Assembly (NCBI GenBank): GCA_022571845.1
Contig: JACZXB010000001.1
Span: forward strand, 372,001 to 436,000
Direction of reading: 5' to 3'
Source: Candidatus Zixiibacteriota bacterium
Lineage (GTDB): Bacteria; Zixibacteria; MSB-5A5; GN15; FEB-12
Length of the DNA stretch: 64,000 nt
Shown here in pieces: positions 15,227-20,949 of this stretch. The number at the start of each line of letters is the position of its first letter. Position 1 is the first letter of the stretch. Under the pieces are notes generated by a model. That model was given only the letters and a program-made list of their open reading frames with translations. It ran no database searches and had not been told where the DNA came from. Position numbers and translations under genes: made by a program.

Positions 15227-17179
15227 CTACATTGAAACCCTGACCCCAAAATAGGCCGAAAGAGGGATGTTGCCGTATGTAAAAACTTCCTGATAATCTT
15301 CATCGAATAGATTATCAATCCGACCGGTCAACTGCAGATTTCGGCTGAGAACGTACGACGCTGCCAGGTTCACGACCGTATAGCTTTCCAGAGTTACACG
15401 CACCGCTGCGAACGGTGGTAATGGTGGTTTTGGATTGAAATTCAAGTCATCGCGCTCACCCACATGTCTCGCTGTCATATTCAGAGTGAGGCTTTGATTA
15501 GGCTGGTAGCTGGTAACTAAGACAAGTTTTCGTGCCGGTCGCCTGATTAGTTCTTGCCCGGTTGTCTTGTCTTCACTCCTGGTATAGCTGTAATCTATCC
15601 GGGAGCGAAACTGATCTGACCTAAATTCAAGCGCTGCCTCAAGGCCATGCGAGAAGGCCTCGGCCACGTTTTCGATTCTTTGGCTCGAATCTACAAATTG
15701 GATCAAATCTTCAAAATCGTTGTCGAAGTAAGTAATAGAAAATGTAAGAAGCTCTGCTGCAAGTTCGTGCTCTGCTCCAATCTCCCAGCTTCGACTTTTT
15801 TCGGGCAAGAGGTCGGGGTTTCCAATAAACGGACTGGGGTGGTATAGCTGAAATATCGACGGCGCTTTGTAGCCGGTGCCGATAACGCCGCGAATTCGGG
15901 CGTTGACACTTTCAAACAAATAGGCAGCTGTTACTCTGTAAGTACCAGTAATACCAAATTGTTTGTGTTCATCAAAACGTCCGCCGGCAGTTATAAACAA
16001 CCTCTCACCAATTTGAGTTTGGTCAAAAACATAGAGGCCCCTGCTCCAGGCATGTTTGCCGTCTATGCGGTCTGTGTAATCTCCGAAGGAGCTTCGGAAA
16101 AAGAGGTCGCTTGAAAACTCCGCGCGCTCAGATTCGATTCCTATGGTAAGAGCGTTTCGTCTGTCTATTTGAAGGGAACCCTGCCAGCTAATTGCGATTC
16201 GTTCACCGCTTGTAAATGTAGACTGCGAATCGCTGGGATGGTCAACGTCATAGGTATCAAAAGTATTCCTTTCGATGTCAGTAACAGCCAGATTGAGCTG
16301 TTGGCGCCAGGATGAATTCGGAGGTTGATGTATCAGGCGAGCGCCGTACTGGAGCTCTCTTTGGTCAGTGACATAGTTGGGATCATCGAGTGGGCGTAAC
16401 GTTTTGTCTATTTCTAATTCGGAATCAGTATAGCGGCCGGTCAGTCTGAGATTTAGCGATTCGCTTAAGTGAAAATCCAGCCGGGAAGATAGCTGGCTGT
16501 TTTTATAGCCATCTTTTTCTGAGGCACCTTCGTCTTTGTCGGCGGCAGAAATACCGTCGGTATCAAGAAACGTTGCCGAAAGTGAGTAACTAAGTTTCTT
16601 GTGCGAGCCGATTAAGCCGGTTCTGAAATTGAGGCTGTTAAATGAACCGGTTTCTGATGAAAAACTCAGCTCTCTATTTGCACTTCCTGTTTTAGTGAAA
16701 AGCTGAACAACTCCGCCGATTGCTTCCGGGCCATACAGCACACTCTGCGGACCTCGCAGAATTTCAATTCGTGAAATATTTTCGGTTCTTAAGTTTGATA
16801 AATCTGCGGCGTTGTTGGGTGAGCTGGGGTCGTTTAATGATATGCCGTCAAGCAAAACCAGGGTATGGTGGGCGTTGGCGCCTCTCAAAAAAAGCGAGGT
16901 AAGCGTTCCGGCTCCGCCGGACTGGACGACATCAAGTCCGGGCACATTGCGCAATATATCGGTGATCATAACCGCCTGGCTGTTTTCAATCTCGGCTCTG
17001 GTGATTACCGTGACAGAGCTGCCTATCTGGCGCAGCGGCGTGGCTGTGCGGTTGGCTGTGACAACGATTGAGTCGTTTAGTTCTCTGGGGTTTTCTTCAG
17101 TGCCGCTTGGTTCTTGAGCATGGATTCCCGTCGCTTCCACGAGCAAAAGAGCGGCCATGAACAGCAAAAAGCGCTTCAT
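15227..17179 (-). CDS. btuB: TonB-dependent outer-membrane receptor, BtuB-like cobalamin importer
   Basis: The 650 residues comprise a signal peptide (about 1-21), a TonB-box-like DSIVVTANRT, a plug domain (about 40-165, LRGANAHHTLVLLDGISLND) and a 22-strand-type barrel with the classic C-terminal LTGRIDNLFDEDYQEVFTY ending in an aromatic-rich strand and terminal Met. A cobalamin riboswitch lies directly upstream, which assigns the substrate as B12 or a corrinoid much more strongly than the protein alone. ATG at 17177-17179 has AAAGGGA as ribosome site. The ABC partner BtuCDF is not in the window. Confidence 0.93.
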   Translation of the reverse strand: MKRFLLFMAALLLVEATGIHAQEPSGTEENPRELNDSIVVTANRTATPLRQIGSSVTVITRAEIENSQAVMITDILRNVPGLDVVQSGGAGTLTSLFLRGANAHHTLVLLDGISLNDPSSPNNAADLSNLRTENISRIEILRGPQSVLYGPEAIGGVVQLFTKTGSANRELSFSSETGSFNSLNFRTGLIGSHKKLSYSLSATFLDTDGISAADKDEGASEKDGYKNSQLSSRLDFHLSESLNLRLTGRYTDSELEIDKTLRPLDDPNYVTDQRELQYGARLIHQPPNSSWRQQLNLAVTDIERNTFDTYDVDHPSDSQSTFTSGERIAISWQGSLQIDRRNALTIGIESERAEFSSDLFFRSSFGDYTDRIDGKHAWSRGLYVFDQTQIGERLFITAGGRFDEHKQFGITGTYRVTAAYLFESVNARIRGVIGTGYKAPSIFQLYHPSPFIGNPDLLPEKSRSWEIGAEHELAAELLTFSITYFDNDFEDLIQFVDSSQRIENVAEAFSHGLEAALEFRSDQFRSRIDYSYTRSEDKTTGQELIRRPARKLVLVTSYQPNQSLTLNMTARHVGERDDLNFNPKPPLPPFAAVRVTLESYTVVNLAASYVLSRNLQLTGRIDNLFDEDYQEVFTYGNIPLSAYFGVRVSM

Positions 17180-17199
17180 GGTGTCCCTTTCTAAAGACC

Positions 17200-17425
17200 T
17201 GCCACCAGCGCGGGTTTCCTGATAACGACCCGCGTCGTTTTCGGTCTTAGATTGATTTGGTTACGGCAGGTTTCCTGGCTCCGGCGTCAAACCTCTCAAA
17301 GCGCCTTCCCGGTCAATTTTACCGGTGGCTTGATTTGCCTCAAAAGTAGCCGTTACAGTAGCGGGGCTGCGACGGTTTCACACCGTCTTCCCTTTTACTC
17401 CCGCATTAGGCGGGACACCGCAACG
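17200..17425 (-). promoter_or_regulatory. Cobalamin (B12) riboswitch controlling btuB
   Basis: Read on the minus strand, the element shows GGGAAGACGGTGTGAAACCG and CGCAGCCCCGCTACTGTAA near 17345-17395, then GCCGGAGCCAGGAAACCTGCC (the B12 box, 17265-17285). These are the conserved core blocks of the adenosylcobalamin riboswitch. Downstream, CGCGGGT (17209-17215) can pair with ACCCGCG (17228-17234) in a hairpin about 20 bases before the ribosome site. There is no T run after it, so translational control is more likely than termination. Binding of B12 should lower btuB expression. Confidence 0.93.
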
Positions 17426-17435
17426 ATTTGAATTA

Positions 17436-17464
17436 AGGTTAGGGAATGTTGGGAATTCTGTCAA
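17436..17464 (-). promoter_or_regulatory. Sigma-70-type promoter of the riboswitch-btuB transcript
   Basis: On the minus strand TTGACA (17459-17464) is followed after exactly 17 bases by TAACCT (17436-17441). Transcription would start about seven bases further, just ahead of the first riboswitch helix. It sits 16 bases downstream of the protease stop codon. Confidence 0.75.
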
Positions 17465-17479
17465 GCTGTAAATTAATCC

Positions 17480-18391
17480 CTAGTAAACTGGCAATACTGC
17501 AAAGAAGATTTTCTTTTTGGAAAAATCGATGAACAGATAATTGTCGATCAAAAATGTTGTGCCCAAAACACCTTCAATATTTAGATTTGCGACTTCATGA
17601 TTCAATTTGCCCATATCTCTTTCCAAGACCCTCACATTTTCACTCTTGGCCAGTACAGCATCCAACTTAATGCTATCAATACTAAGATACCCCGAATTGT
17701 TCTTTAACTTCAATTCTTGAACTAAGTTTGGAGAAAACAAACTATAAGAAGAACCTAAGTCGAGAATAAATCGCTTTGTCGTTAAACCATTCAAAGTAGC
17801 ATTTATGATTATGAGATGTCTTTCAATCTCAAATGGGATTTCTTCAAATATGAAATAGTTAGGTAACTCAAAGCCGTTCTTATGGAACTTTATGAATGGA
17901 TGAGCGAATATGGAATCTTCAATATCCTTATTAAAAGTTTCTTGTCCGCCATACATTATTTCGATTACATAATTCTTTAGAAAAGAATACCCCAACACCC
18001 CATCCGGATATCCCATCGAAGTGTCTTTAATCTGTGACACTAAATCAATAGAAACTATAGATAGATCGGACAAAGATATGTCTCCAAATTTCAGGCTCTC
18101 TACTCTAAATAGCTTTGCTTCAGTACTACCTTTAGAGCCACGCGTTGGTCGCATCGGCTGAGTGCGGCCTGACAATAGGCCGTGCTTCTCAGCAAATGTC
18201 TTATCGATATATACATGGTCGGCGCCGGTATCTATGACAAAAATAGCTTTGATAGAATCATTGATGATAACTTCAATTTCTGGAATACCCCGTTTGAGAC
18301 TGAACGGAATCGGTTCAGCAGCCACAACCAGACCTGTTGCAAAACTTACGAGTAAAATTACGACAAGCACTATGCGGATGCTATGTTTCAC
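17480..18391 (-). CDS. Exported retropepsin-like aspartyl protease, two-lobed
   Basis: The 303 residues have a signal peptide (about 1-25), then two similar lobes. Lobe 1 carries FVIDTGADHV (Asp54-Thr-Gly), the aspartic protease active-site loop, followed by the hydrophobic-Gly YPDGVLGYSFL. Lobe 2 has RFILDLGSSYSLFS (Asp211-Leu-Gly-Ser) and VLGTTFLIDNYLF. Thr is replaced by Leu in the second triad. The gene begins 2 bases after the ccmE stop and so is likely the last gene of the ccm operon, but it is clearly more AT-rich than ccm. A role in cytochrome biogenesis is only suggested by position. Confidence 0.82.
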   Translation of the reverse strand: MKHSIRIVLVVILLVSFATGLVVAAEPIPFSLKRGIPEIEVIINDSIKAIFVIDTGADHVYIDKTFAEKHGLLSGRTQPMRPTRGSKGSTEAKLFRVESLKFGDISLSDLSIVSIDLVSQIKDTSMGYPDGVLGYSFLKNYVIEIMYGGQETFNKDIEDSIFAHPFIKFHKNGFELPNYFIFEEIPFEIERHLIIINATLNGLTTKRFILDLGSSYSLFSPNLVQELKLKNNSGYLSIDSIKLDAVLAKSENVRVLERDMGKLNHEVANLNIEGVLGTTFLIDNYLFIDFSKKKIFFAVLPVY

Positions 18392-18393
18392 AT

Positions 18394-18870
18394 CTACATA
18401 GACGAAGCAGCAGAGTCTGGTCTTGAATTAATCACCGTATCGCCCATAATGCCGCCTTTGTGCTTTTTTATGTCCCCATATTCTTCGCCATCTTCACCTT
18501 GATATTTCGAGGGACACTTCACTAAAAGTTTATCAGCGACGAATTCGTTCTCGTGACTGACTCCTTTGGCGACAACCGATATAGCCTGGTCAAAATTTCC
18601 CGGCACCACGCCGTAGTAAACAACTTTCAACCGCTCGGCTGTAACTTCATCTTCAGCCTCAGCATCGTAGATTGTGAATTCAAGCCTCGATTCAGCGCTG
18701 TTGTAGCTGACTTCATCTTTGGAAATTTTGCCCATGACCTGAACCATTTCGCTTGAAGTCTTTGCTTCGGCTATCGATACGTAGACAATAGTTGAGTCGA
18801 GAAAACTGGTTATCCCCCATATCATAGTCACACCGATAATAACCAGGCCTATTATTGTTTTAGCATTCAC
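18394..18870 (-). CDS. ccmE: CcmE haem chaperone, CxxxY variant
   Basis: The 158-residue protein has an N-terminal membrane anchor (about 5-25) and an OB-fold periplasmic domain matching CcmE (VQVMGKIS, LEFTIYD, LKVVYYGVVPGNFDQA, VSHENEFVADKLLVKCPSKY). The covalent haem-binding residue is Cys119 in C-P-S-K-Y rather than the His of HxxxY. This is the CxxxY type known from Desulfovibrio and archaea, associated with variant Ccm machinery. It begins at GTG (18868-18870), overlapping the ccmD stop as GTGA. The acidic and His-containing tail is diverged. It receives haem from CcmC and hands it to CcmF, which is not in the window. Confidence 0.9.
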   Translation of the reverse strand: MNAKTIIGLVIIGVTMIWGITSFLDSTIVYVSIAEAKTSSEMVQVMGKISKDEVSYNSAESRLEFTIYDAEAEDEVTAERLKVVYYGVVPGNFDQAISVVAKGVSHENEFVADKLLVKCPSKYQGEDGEEYGDIKKHKGGIMGDTVINSRPDSAASSM

Positions 18871-18980
18871 CTGCTTTTCTCCTCCAGTTTTTTTATTCGC
18901 TTATCAAGCTTCAAGAGGAATATAAACAATCCTGCCCAGATTGCCAGTGTTACCGCCAGAGCTACGTAATTTCCATCCAT
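18867..18980 (-). CDS. ccmD: CcmD-like small membrane protein, 37 residues
   Basis: A short frame of 37 codons reads MDGNYVALAVTLAIWAGLFI and then FLLKLDKRIKKLEEKSR: one transmembrane helix followed by a basic amphipathic tail, the CcmD layout (about 35-70 residues in the family). ATG at 18978-18980 is one base after the ccmC stop, and its TGA overlaps the GTG of ccmE. Position between ccmC and ccmE is the classical one. CcmD helps release holo-CcmE from CcmABC. Confidence 0.85.
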   Translation of the reverse strand: MDGNYVALAVTLAIWAGLFIFLLKLDKRIKKLEEKSR

Positions 18981-18981
18981 T

Positions 18982-19638
18982 TTAGGCTGCCCCTGTCATT
19001 TGTTTTCTTTTTAATCGATTTAACCTCTTGGTCAGGCTCAGCATCCAGAAGTATAAAACGCTGAAGGCGGCCAGTGAAGAGAAGAATATCGAACGAACCT
19101 GCACTCCCATTGTAAAATTCAAATTTTCATCTATTACCGAATCGGTCGGGTGCAGCGAGGTAACCATTCTGGGGACAACAAAAACTAGAAAAGGAACAGT
19201 CACAAACGCAAAAATCGAATAAACAGCTGAAAGCGTGGCCCGCCGGTCTTCGTCTTCAACAGCGCTCCTAAGGGCAAAAAAGGCACCGTAAATTAGCAGC
19301 AGGATAAATATCGAGGTTTGCCTCGGATCCCAGTTCCAAAACGAGCCCCAGGTAACTTTGGCGAATATCGAACCGGTTATTGTCGCCAGCAGACAGAAGA
19401 TAAAGCCGAGACGGGCTGTATCCAGCGCATAATCATCATCGATAAGCTTTCTATTTTTCAAAAATCGCGCTGAGTAAAAAGCTGACATTGCAAAGGCCAC
19501 CACGCAAAGCCAGGCTTGCGGTATATGGAAGTAAAATATCCGGCTGGCTTCGCCAATCTGCTTCTGGGGAGCCTCGGTAATAAATCCGGTTACGATTACC
19601 GCTGACATCACTAAAAATAATAAAATTTGCCACCACAT
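18982..19638 (-). CDS. ccmC: Haem transporter/lyase CcmC
   Basis: The 218-residue protein has six transmembrane helices and the haem-handling WGxxWxWD motif as WGSFWNWDPRQTS (about 97-109). Conserved His residues occur in FYFHIPQAW (His38) and MVTSLHPTDS (near 163), the axial ligands in the family. CcmC loads haem onto CcmE at the outer face of the inner membrane. It follows ccmB by 5 bases and precedes ccmD by one base. Confidence 0.95.
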   Translation of the reverse strand: MWWQILLFLVMSAVIVTGFITEAPQKQIGEASRIFYFHIPQAWLCVVAFAMSAFYSARFLKNRKLIDDDYALDTARLGFIFCLLATITGSIFAKVTWGSFWNWDPRQTSIFILLLIYGAFFALRSAVEDEDRRATLSAVYSIFAFVTVPFLVFVVPRMVTSLHPTDSVIDENLNFTMGVQVRSIFFSSLAAFSVLYFWMLSLTKRLNRLKRKQMTGAA

Positions 19639-19643
19639 AATTC

Positions 19644-20357
19644 TTAATCTTCCCAGACAAACTTAAACAACATTAGCGACGCTGTCACCATTATTACTAC
19701 ATAAGCGAGCAAAAATTGCAATAATTTCGAAACTTCGGCCAGACTGCTGCCTGCCCAGACCTTATCAGTCGCCGCTACCAGCACTATTAAAACAGGCAGT
19801 AAAATCGGAAAAGAGAGCACCGCGAATAAGGCGCCTTTGACCGAAGCCCTGGCAATAATGGCCGCTATTAGAGTGGTAGCAGCGCATAAATCCAGTACGC
19901 CCAATATCATGACCAGCAGGAAATTCACAATTCCCTCTACTGGAGCGTCAGTAAATATGAAAAAGAGCGGCGTTATCACTGAGACCAAGATCACTAAGAG
20001 CGACAGATTAAAAAAGAGCTTACCCAGATAGACAGCGTTTGGCTCAGTTGTTAAACGCAGAGCCATGGCGGTGCCCGATTCTTCTTCGCGGACAAAGACC
20101 TGAGCCATAGCCGACATAGCTGAAAATAAGACCACAATCCAGTACAGCGCGCTTAAAACTTTGGTAGACAGGGCTGCCTGGCCGAGCGAAAAAGAGATAA
20201 CAGTCAGAGACGAAATACCAAACATGAAAATAGCGTTAAGGCCGTAGCGGGAGCGCAGCTCCAATCGCAGATCCTTGACATAAACTGCCAGTACTTTATT
20301 GGTCAAGCCGGCATTGCTGGCTGGCAAGGCTATACTCTTCTTTCTCATTTGTGGCAA
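19644..20357 (-). CDS. ccmB: Haem exporter membrane subunit CcmB
   Basis: About 237 residues with six hydrophobic helices and the CcmB signatures VYVKDLRLELRSRYGLNAIFMF and REEESGTAMALRLTTEPNAVYLGKL, then GALFAVLSFPILLPVLI. It is the membrane subunit of the CcmAB ABC transporter that frees holo-CcmE from CcmC. The frame as drawn overlaps ccmA by 62 bases; homology begins only at about residue 22, so the true start may be further in, for instance TTG near 20308. Confidence 0.92.
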   Translation of the reverse strand: MPQMRKKSIALPASNAGLTNKVLAVYVKDLRLELRSRYGLNAIFMFGISSLTVISFSLGQAALSTKVLSALYWIVVLFSAMSAMAQVFVREEESGTAMALRLTTEPNAVYLGKLFFNLSLLVILVSVITPLFFIFTDAPVEGIVNFLLVMILGVLDLCAATTLIAAIIARASVKGALFAVLSFPILLPVLIVLVAATDKVWAGSSLAEVSKLLQFLLAYVVIMVTASLMLFKFVWED

Positions 20358-20949
20358 TTATAATTATGCTGCCGGAGCGCTGTTCTTCAATCAGGGCAGT
20401 CATCATCGCTTTTCCTGAATCGTCAAGGCCGCTGGATGGTTCATCAATCAGCAAAAAATCCGGTTTGTTACTTAGCGCTACTGCATATTTGAGGCGTTGT
20501 TTCATACCGGTTGAATAGTCTGAGACTAAATCCATACCTCTGCCTTCCAGGCCGACCCTGAGTAACAGGCTGTCTATTTCTTTGCCGGTGATATTTCTGC
20601 CTCGAACGGCTGTGAAAAATTGTAAATTCTCTTCGGCTGAGAGCTGGTCATATAGACTCAGATAGGGGGCAACAAAGGAAATCCGGTGACGAAGTTCTTC
20701 CCGCGACAAAACTCTGTCATTGTCGAAATAAGTTACTTTGCCGGAGCTTGGCCGCAGCAGCGCCAGAAGCAGTTTTAAGAGAGTGGTTTTGCCGGAGCCG
20801 TTGGGACCGGTTATGGCAACGGATTCTCCCTGCCTGATTTCAAGATTAAGCGAAGATATCACTTTTCGCTCACCGAAGTTTTTTTTGAGGCTCTCTACTT
20901 TAATCGCCAGCACATAGAAATGATACCACCAACTTAGCCGTGTAATCAA
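20296..20949 (-). CDS. ccmA: ABC transporter ATPase subunit CcmA
   Basis: The protein carries Walker A GPNGSGKTT, the signature YSTGMKQRLKYA and Walker B FLLIDEPSSGLDD: a complete nucleotide-binding domain of CcmA size. The longest frame starts with a TTG at 20947-20949, but homology starts at VLAIKVESLKK, so the GTG at 20911-20913 (205 residues) is a better start, with a modest GGTGG upstream. It drives CcmB in releasing haem-loaded CcmE and is the first gene of ccmABCDE. A terminator separates it from the gene upstream. Confidence 0.93.
   Translation of the reverse strand: MITRLSWWYHFYVLAIKVESLKKNFGERKVISSLNLEIRQGESVAITGPNGSGKTTLLKLLLALLRPSSGKVTYFDNDRVLSREELRHRISFVAPYLSLYDQLSAEENLQFFTAVRGRNITGKEIDSLLLRVGLEGRGMDLVSDYSTGMKQRLKYAVALSNKPDFLLIDEPSSGLDDSGKAMMTALIEEQRSGSIIIIATNEKEEYSLASQQCRLDQ

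Follow-up and report, generated by a model that had tools for sequence, protein, structure and literature searches.

A CcmABCDE operon with a cysteine-type CcmE in a Zixibacteria genome very probably belongs to System I* cytochrome c maturation

System I* is a variant of the cytochrome c maturation (Ccm) pathway with a Cys-type CcmE and no CcmH, which was described earlier for archaea and Desulfovibrio (PMC3601427). The same source reports that, in E. coli, neither CcmG nor CcmH is needed for the Desulfovibrio operon to make holocytochrome. In Methanosarcina acetivorans, C120 of CcmE was reported to be required for haem attachment and stability, and CcmABCEF to be seemingly sufficient (PMC9084895). 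A Tyr of CcmE was reported to supply a coordination bond, and D. vulgaris CcmE was described as binding haem non-covalently through its Cys, unlike what was reported for D. desulfuricans (PMC3884852). The covalent step is thus uncertain even in the known cases. A preliminary description of the locus studied here had stated that the CxxxY variant is documented in sulfate reducers and archaea, which agrees with these accounts of System I* (PMC3601427, PMC9084895). Among the matches listed in our literature search, no title dealt with the spread of System I* across bacterial phyla, and a limited title search found no earlier report of Cys-type CcmE or System I* in Zixibacteria.

We analysed a 64,000-nucleotide stretch of a Zixibacteria genome (the window) and found five genes on the minus strand, running from 20949 to 18394 in the order ccmA-ccmB-ccmC-ccmD-ccmE (Table 1). 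We concluded with high confidence that, of the System I* pathway for cytochrome c maturation in this genome, this operon encodes the half that exports and carries haem. The genes and their order, the CcmE motif, the single CcmE and single CcmF, the absence of any match to CcmH or ResB, and the likely clients can be read from the genome itself.

Table 1. Features of the ccm operon and the gene that follows it (window positions)
Feature	Position	Strand	Basis
ccmA, ATPase of haem-release ABC complex	20296..20913	-	Pfam ABC_tran 5.2e-28, over cut-off
ccmB, membrane subunit	19644..20357	-	Pfam CcmB 3.4e-19, over cut-off
ccmC, haem-handling subunit, WWD motif and two conserved His	18982..19638	-	Pfam Cytochrom_C_asm 3.6e-28, over cut-off
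ccmD, 37-aa single-span protein	18867..18980	-	Pfam CcmD_alt 2.4e-5 and NCBIfam TIGR04391 2.1e-6, both over cut-off
ccmE, membrane-anchored OB-fold haem chaperone, Cys type	18394..18870	-	Pfam CcmE 1.3e-17, over cut-off
Haem-binding CxxxY motif C119-P-S-K-Y123 (predicted)	18502..18516	-	Read directly from sequence
Clan AA aspartyl-protease gene, directly after ccmE	17480..18391	-	Pfam Asp_protease_2 5.3e-23

The preliminary description had claimed a complete CcmABCDE set with a tiny overlapping ccmD, and all five genes were indeed found, each over its Pfam cut-off. The stop of ccmD and the GTG start of ccmE share 4 bases (GTGA), and ccmD sits between ccmC and ccmE in 6/6 loci compared. The NCBIfam models were less generous: only CcmD scored above cut-off, and CcmA, CcmB (2.6e-9), CcmC, and CcmE reached the right models under cut-off. 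For CcmA, the ccmA model gave 1.4e-33 and 116.3 bits against a cut-off of 131.6, and it was outscored by the drrA and lantibiotic-protection models, both likewise under their own cut-offs. Because the two top models are those of other ABC ATPases, the name CcmA rests on position; ccmA heads the conserved gene order in the 5 compared loci that reach that far. The ccmA open reading frame opens at TTG 20949, and GTG 20913 is the more likely start, while ccmB could start at TTG 20357 or ATG 20348. CcmC aligned with chain C of 7f02 (heme exporter protein C, which we take to be the E. coli protein) at an E value of 7.9e-14, with the WWD stretch and the two His in register.

CcmE has 158 residues and consists of an N-terminal hydrophobic stretch, which we read as a putative membrane anchor, followed by the Pfam CcmE domain and the C-P-S-K-Y motif. 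The Cys119 codon occupies 18516-18514. Its best solved relative was 2kct, a CcmE structure (E, 0.0043), followed by 8ce8 and 1sr3 (both 0.053), which we presume to be E. coli CcmE. The Cys aligned with a Cys in 2kct, the D. vulgaris protein (PMC3884852), and with a His in 8ce8 and 1sr3. The nearest CcmE relatives with named records came from Candidatus Zixiibacteriota genomes (92, 91, and 62% identity).

We then read CcmE across the phylum. CcmE was found in 109/132 Zixibacteria genomes, and in 74 of the 78 with completeness of at least 90% and contamination of at most 5%. Of 112 CcmE places found, 111 were read (the one left out is a 54-aa open frame, G099:C87), and all 111 carry C-P-S-K-Y, so the motif is not a chance feature of one sequence. 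The alignment held 119 rows, 116 of them distinct (111 from Zixibacteria and 5 from other phyla); the rows L004, L005, and L006 duplicate the genomes G032, G033, and G034, with identical places and scores. The five CcmE proteins of Calditrichota and Herpetosiphon likewise carry C-P-S-K-Y, with one CcmE match per genome (5/5). The replacement of the His of HxxxY by Cys119, as first noted for this locus, therefore holds in every CcmE place read in the phylum. To archaea and a few sulfate reducers, the known holders of System I*, we can thus add a bacterial phylum whose CcmE proteins, as far as read, are all of the Cys type, including one from a genome with what looks like an aerobic chain.

All the ccm genes in the window belong to classical System I (CcmABCDEFGH) as well, and the His of CcmE might merely have been mutated in this one genome. 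We consider this very improbable, since the Cys stands in 111/111 places read across the phylum and the window's genome has no CcmH match. Two findings had been named beforehand as ones that would speak against a CxxxY system, namely, a second CcmE of the HxxxY type and a classical CcmFGH set. We found a single PF03100 match in the genome (E ≤ 0.001), that is, one CcmE genome-wide and none of the HxxxY type, and CcmH had no match anywhere in the genome at E ≤ 10.

The genome measures 2.75 Mb in 21 contigs and is 98.84% complete. A whole-genome search with PF01578 (E ≤ 1) found two proteins, CcmC of the window and one 743-aa CcmF on another contig (C11), beside a gene that looks like ispH. The preliminary description had placed ccmF, ccmG, and ccmH outside the window and had proposed looking for ccmF elsewhere and asking if ccmH is missing. 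Consistently with this, the sole CcmF lies on C11, the window contains no redoxin of family PF08534, the fold type of CcmG, and CcmH had 0 matches in the genome with PF03918 at E ≤ 10. As controls, 10/14 genomes matched PF03918 at E ≤ 10, and at E ≤ 0.001 the matching controls were E. coli, Caulobacter, Thermus, and Deinobacterium, the same 4 genomes that score above its cut-off. ResB, the criterion for System II, had 0 matches in the genome at E ≤ 1. An absent gene could sit in a gap, since the genome is 98.84% complete and in pieces.

The CcmF on C11 matched 6zmq, the CcmF of T. thermophilus (PMC10746174), at 7.5e-63. Its top NCBIfam matches were NrfE/CcmF-family models, under cut-off, and because of such scores we regard CcmF, along with CcmA, CcmB, CcmC, and CcmE, as a divergent member of its family. 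It keeps the WWD stretch and the four conserved His; the four His are present in 71/71 aligned CcmF sequences, and the WWD stretch deviates at the Asp in 1/71. The roles of conserved histidines were described for E. coli CcmF (PMC10746174); the assignment of individual CcmF His as ligands here is our own. The genome also encodes one DsbD/CcdA-type membrane protein and 8 redoxin-domain proteins, candidates for CcmG, none of which lies on C11 or near the ccm operon. By eye, we saw no thioredoxin-like open reading frame beside the CcdA-type gene in a 3.5-kb stretch around it.

In L005, 12/12 window proteins compared keep their order, which runs DXR, RseP, LepB, DUF1573 protein, CcmABCDE, aspartyl protease, TonB receptor, and 143-aa protein. 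The order is kept from DXR to the aspartyl protease in L006, where the contig nearly ends. The aspartyl-protease gene follows ccmE in both genus relatives (L004 and L005) and, at 33% identity, in L006; we think that it probably lies outside the Ccm system. In 3/3 genomes of the window's genus, the places after ccmE are taken by the aspartyl-protease gene and a TonB receptor, and no ccmF is linked. Only CcmABCDE of the 12 proteins is present in Calditrichota (L007) and Herpetosiphon (L008 and L011), and those loci also carry a CcmF of 745 to 792 residues.

Given the absence of a ccmE-linked ccmF in 3/3 genomes of the genus, the operon might export haem or another substrate rather than serve cytochrome c maturation, the linked ccmF having been lost. 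We give this reading very little credence, because the genome encodes a full-length CcmF elsewhere, its conserved histidines included, and because c-type clients are present. We counted the CxxCH-type DNA pattern 274 times in the genome and the reversed control 131 times. A cluster on contig C5 encodes two cytochromes, one with five CxxCH and one monohaem, together with an SCO1 protein and a CoxB to which a cytochrome c domain is fused (over cut-off). It also encodes a molybdopterin/iron-sulfur protein that resembles QrcB and QrcC (under cut-offs) and scores over the TIGR04519 cut-off, a DsrP-like membrane protein (under cut-off), and a CoxA with Pfam COX1 at 5.7e-150 and NCBIfam CtaD at 669.9 bits against a cut-off of 670.75. 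From gene order and domains, we take this cluster to be alternative complex III with a caa3-type oxidase. The respiratory chain looks aerobic, and the clients of the Ccm proteins are likely aerobic-chain cytochromes. The preliminary description had presented the variant as one of sulfate reducers and archaea. That the variant is a known one stands, but a tie to sulfate reduction does not apply here: Cys-type CcmE is no marker of it in this genome because the respiratory cluster with the c-type haem sites is an aerobic one.

The preliminary description had also supposed that CcmH is missing in CxxxY systems. This fits the window's genome and is not universal. At E ≤ 0.001, PF03918 matched 6/132 Zixibacteria genomes, all from families f18 and f19, and in 4 the score exceeded the curated cut-off. 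We inspected the loci in 5 of the 6 matching genomes. Four f19 genomes (L012, L013, L014, and L016) have two tandem CcmH-like open reading frames, each with an N-terminal hydrophobic stretch, and the f18 genome (L017) has a single one. Family scans bore out the CcmH-like matches, some slightly under cut-off. A DUF4350 protein adjoins the CcmH-like open reading frames, over cut-off in L012 and slightly under in L014. The neighbors in L013 and L016 resemble those in L012 and L014 by eye. Outside the phylum, two CcmH-like stretches come immediately after the C-terminal part of CcmF in one Calditrichota genome, and no CcmH was found in 4/4 Herpetosiphon genomes. Among archaea, Kletzin et al. reported CcmH homologues only in Ferroglobus placidus (PMC4429474).

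CcmH-like proteins and Cys-type CcmE occur together in five of the six matching Zixibacteria genomes (G124, G125, G127, G129, and G130); the sixth, G126, has no CcmE match. We had considered that the CcmH-bearing members would have a His-type CcmE, and this was ruled out, as 5/5 of those with a CcmE match have Cys. The CcmE Cys is thus usually accompanied by the absence of CcmH, but the two are not a single trait, because CcmH-like proteins co-occur with Cys-type CcmE.

These genomes bear on a further alternative, in which the Cys-type CcmE of the window works with a CcmF whose divergent CcmH-like partner, of the f18, f19, or Calditrichota kind, went undetected. Such proteins are present, together with a Cys-type CcmE, in 5 Zixibacteria genomes and 1 Calditrichota genome, and because they exist in related families, one beyond the reach of the model is possible. 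We nonetheless judge this alternative unlikely, given that the window's genome has no match even at E ≤ 10, that 126/132 Zixibacteria genomes have none at E ≤ 0.001, and that M. acetivorans seems functional without one (PMC9084895). We therefore favor System I* with CcmF acting without CcmH.

CcmF was found in 122/132 Zixibacteria genomes. Of the 109 CcmE-bearing genomes, at least 75 have ccmF after ccmE, on the same strand and no more than 600 bases away. This number is a lower bound, since contigs end and the count (111 CcmE and 148 CcmF places) covered 120/122 CcmF-bearing genomes, so that some copies may only look unlinked. Two rows that were further pieces of genes counted already were left out of it. 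Among the matches listed, 12 of the 75 genomes have a further CcmF elsewhere, 32/109 have only a CcmF not shown beside ccmE, and 2/109 have none. The window's genus has the unlinked CcmF paralogue only (3/3 genomes), with an extra 246-residue piece of the unlinked type at a contig end in G032.

A tree of 68 Zixibacteria CcmF sequences and 3 from other phyla (L148, which has an internal stop, was excluded) contained two well-supported groups. One (support, 100) holds 34 sequences, including 23 unlinked ones of f1, those of f3 and f8, and four of f19; the other (support, 99) holds 29 sequences of f1, f2, and f4, mostly linked to ccmE. The tree was made by a quick method that came with a long-branch warning, and its deepest forks have a weak support of 31. 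With regard to the idea that a larger C-terminal part of CcmF might stand in for CcmH, we compared lengths: the part of CcmF beyond the last conserved His has a median of 272.5 residues in the unlinked type (28 sequences) and 254 in the linked type (28 sequences), where linked means all Zixibacteria rows outside the unlinked clade and not just those beside ccmE.

The simplest reading, with an order of events that we infer, is that an old pair of CcmF genes existed and that the linked copy was lost in the window's genus. We propose more tentatively, and at somewhat less than even confidence, a larger scheme in which linked and unlinked CcmF are two anciently separate synthases that would both serve Cys-type CcmE. 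The window's genus, after losing the linked one, would then be a natural minimal CcmABCDE-plus-CcmF system, the second CcmF of some lineages (Calditrichota and perhaps f18 and f19) may pair with CcmH-like proteins, and the CcmE Cys and the loss of CcmH would be separable. The natural series of genomes that differ in CcmF copy number, linkage, and CcmH-like presence could be used to probe the His-to-Cys change against the loss of CcmH. The core finding is already published for other organisms; what is added here is the two kinds of CcmF, a modest evolutionary addition.

By analogy with work on Desulfovibrio, Methanosarcina, and E. coli, we suggest the following pathway. CcmABCD would carry haem to the outer face of the membrane, where the WWD motif and two histidines of CcmC would serve to present it. 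CcmE would bind the haem by Cys119, probably covalently, with Tyr123 as a likely iron ligand. Holo-CcmE would then hand the haem to the CcmF encoded on C11, which would join it to CxxCH sites without CcmH.

The system can be set beside three described ones. Its CcmABCD and CcmF share their haem-handling motifs with those of E. coli System I (CcmABCDEFGH), but its CcmE has Cys rather than His and CcmH has no match. It resembles Desulfovibrio System I* (PMC3601427, PMC9084895) in having CcmABCDE with a Cys-type CcmE, CcmD, and CcmF and no CcmH match, and it differs in its Zixibacteria host, which has an aerobic cluster, and in the location of ccmF on another contig. With CcmABCEF of M. acetivorans (PMC9084895), it shares the Cys-type CcmE and the lack of CcmH. 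In contrast to M. acetivorans, where CcmF is split into CcmF1 and CcmF2, the Zixibacteria system has CcmD, and its CcmF is one full-length protein.

We found that ccmF occupies the position after ccmE in at least 75 of the 109 CcmE-bearing genomes, whereas in the window ccmE is followed by genes for an aspartyl protease and a TonB-dependent receptor. Both other genomes of the genus share this arrangement. Across the genus, the aspartyl protease is less conserved than the TonB-dependent receptor (55 and 59% versus 83 and 84% identity).

The CcmE search of the phylum returned two full matches apiece in two Zixibacteria genomes, G009 and G020. All four of these CcmE proteins are of the Cys type, and in G009 a separate CcmF follows each of the two.

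CcmE is of the Cys type in the lineages of Zixibacteria families f18 and f19 with CcmH-like proteins. We observed an N-terminal hydrophobic stretch on the divergent CcmH-like proteins of L012, L013, L014, and L016 (f19) and L017 (f18). These proteins occur in tandem at four of the five f18/f19 loci inspected, and in the loci scanned for families, a DUF4350 gene adjoins them in f19. In the first of the CcmH-like stretches at the Calditrichota locus, an in-frame TAG falls within the cysteine motif; an assembly error or a broken gene may account for it, or there may be some other cause.

Gene content of the loci described here
Locus	Coordinates	Features
Window	15227-18391	aspartyl-protease gene and TonB-dependent receptor, both after ccmE
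L211 (Calditrichota genome)	4-2735	CcmF C-terminus, then zinc-ribbon, CcmH-like stretches, FtrD-like protein
L209 (contig C5, window's genome)		five-CxxCH cytochrome, QrcB/QrcC-like protein, monohaem cytochrome, SCO1, CoxB with fused cytochrome c, CoxA

We take the respiratory cluster at L209 to be an alternative complex III with a caa3-type oxidase.
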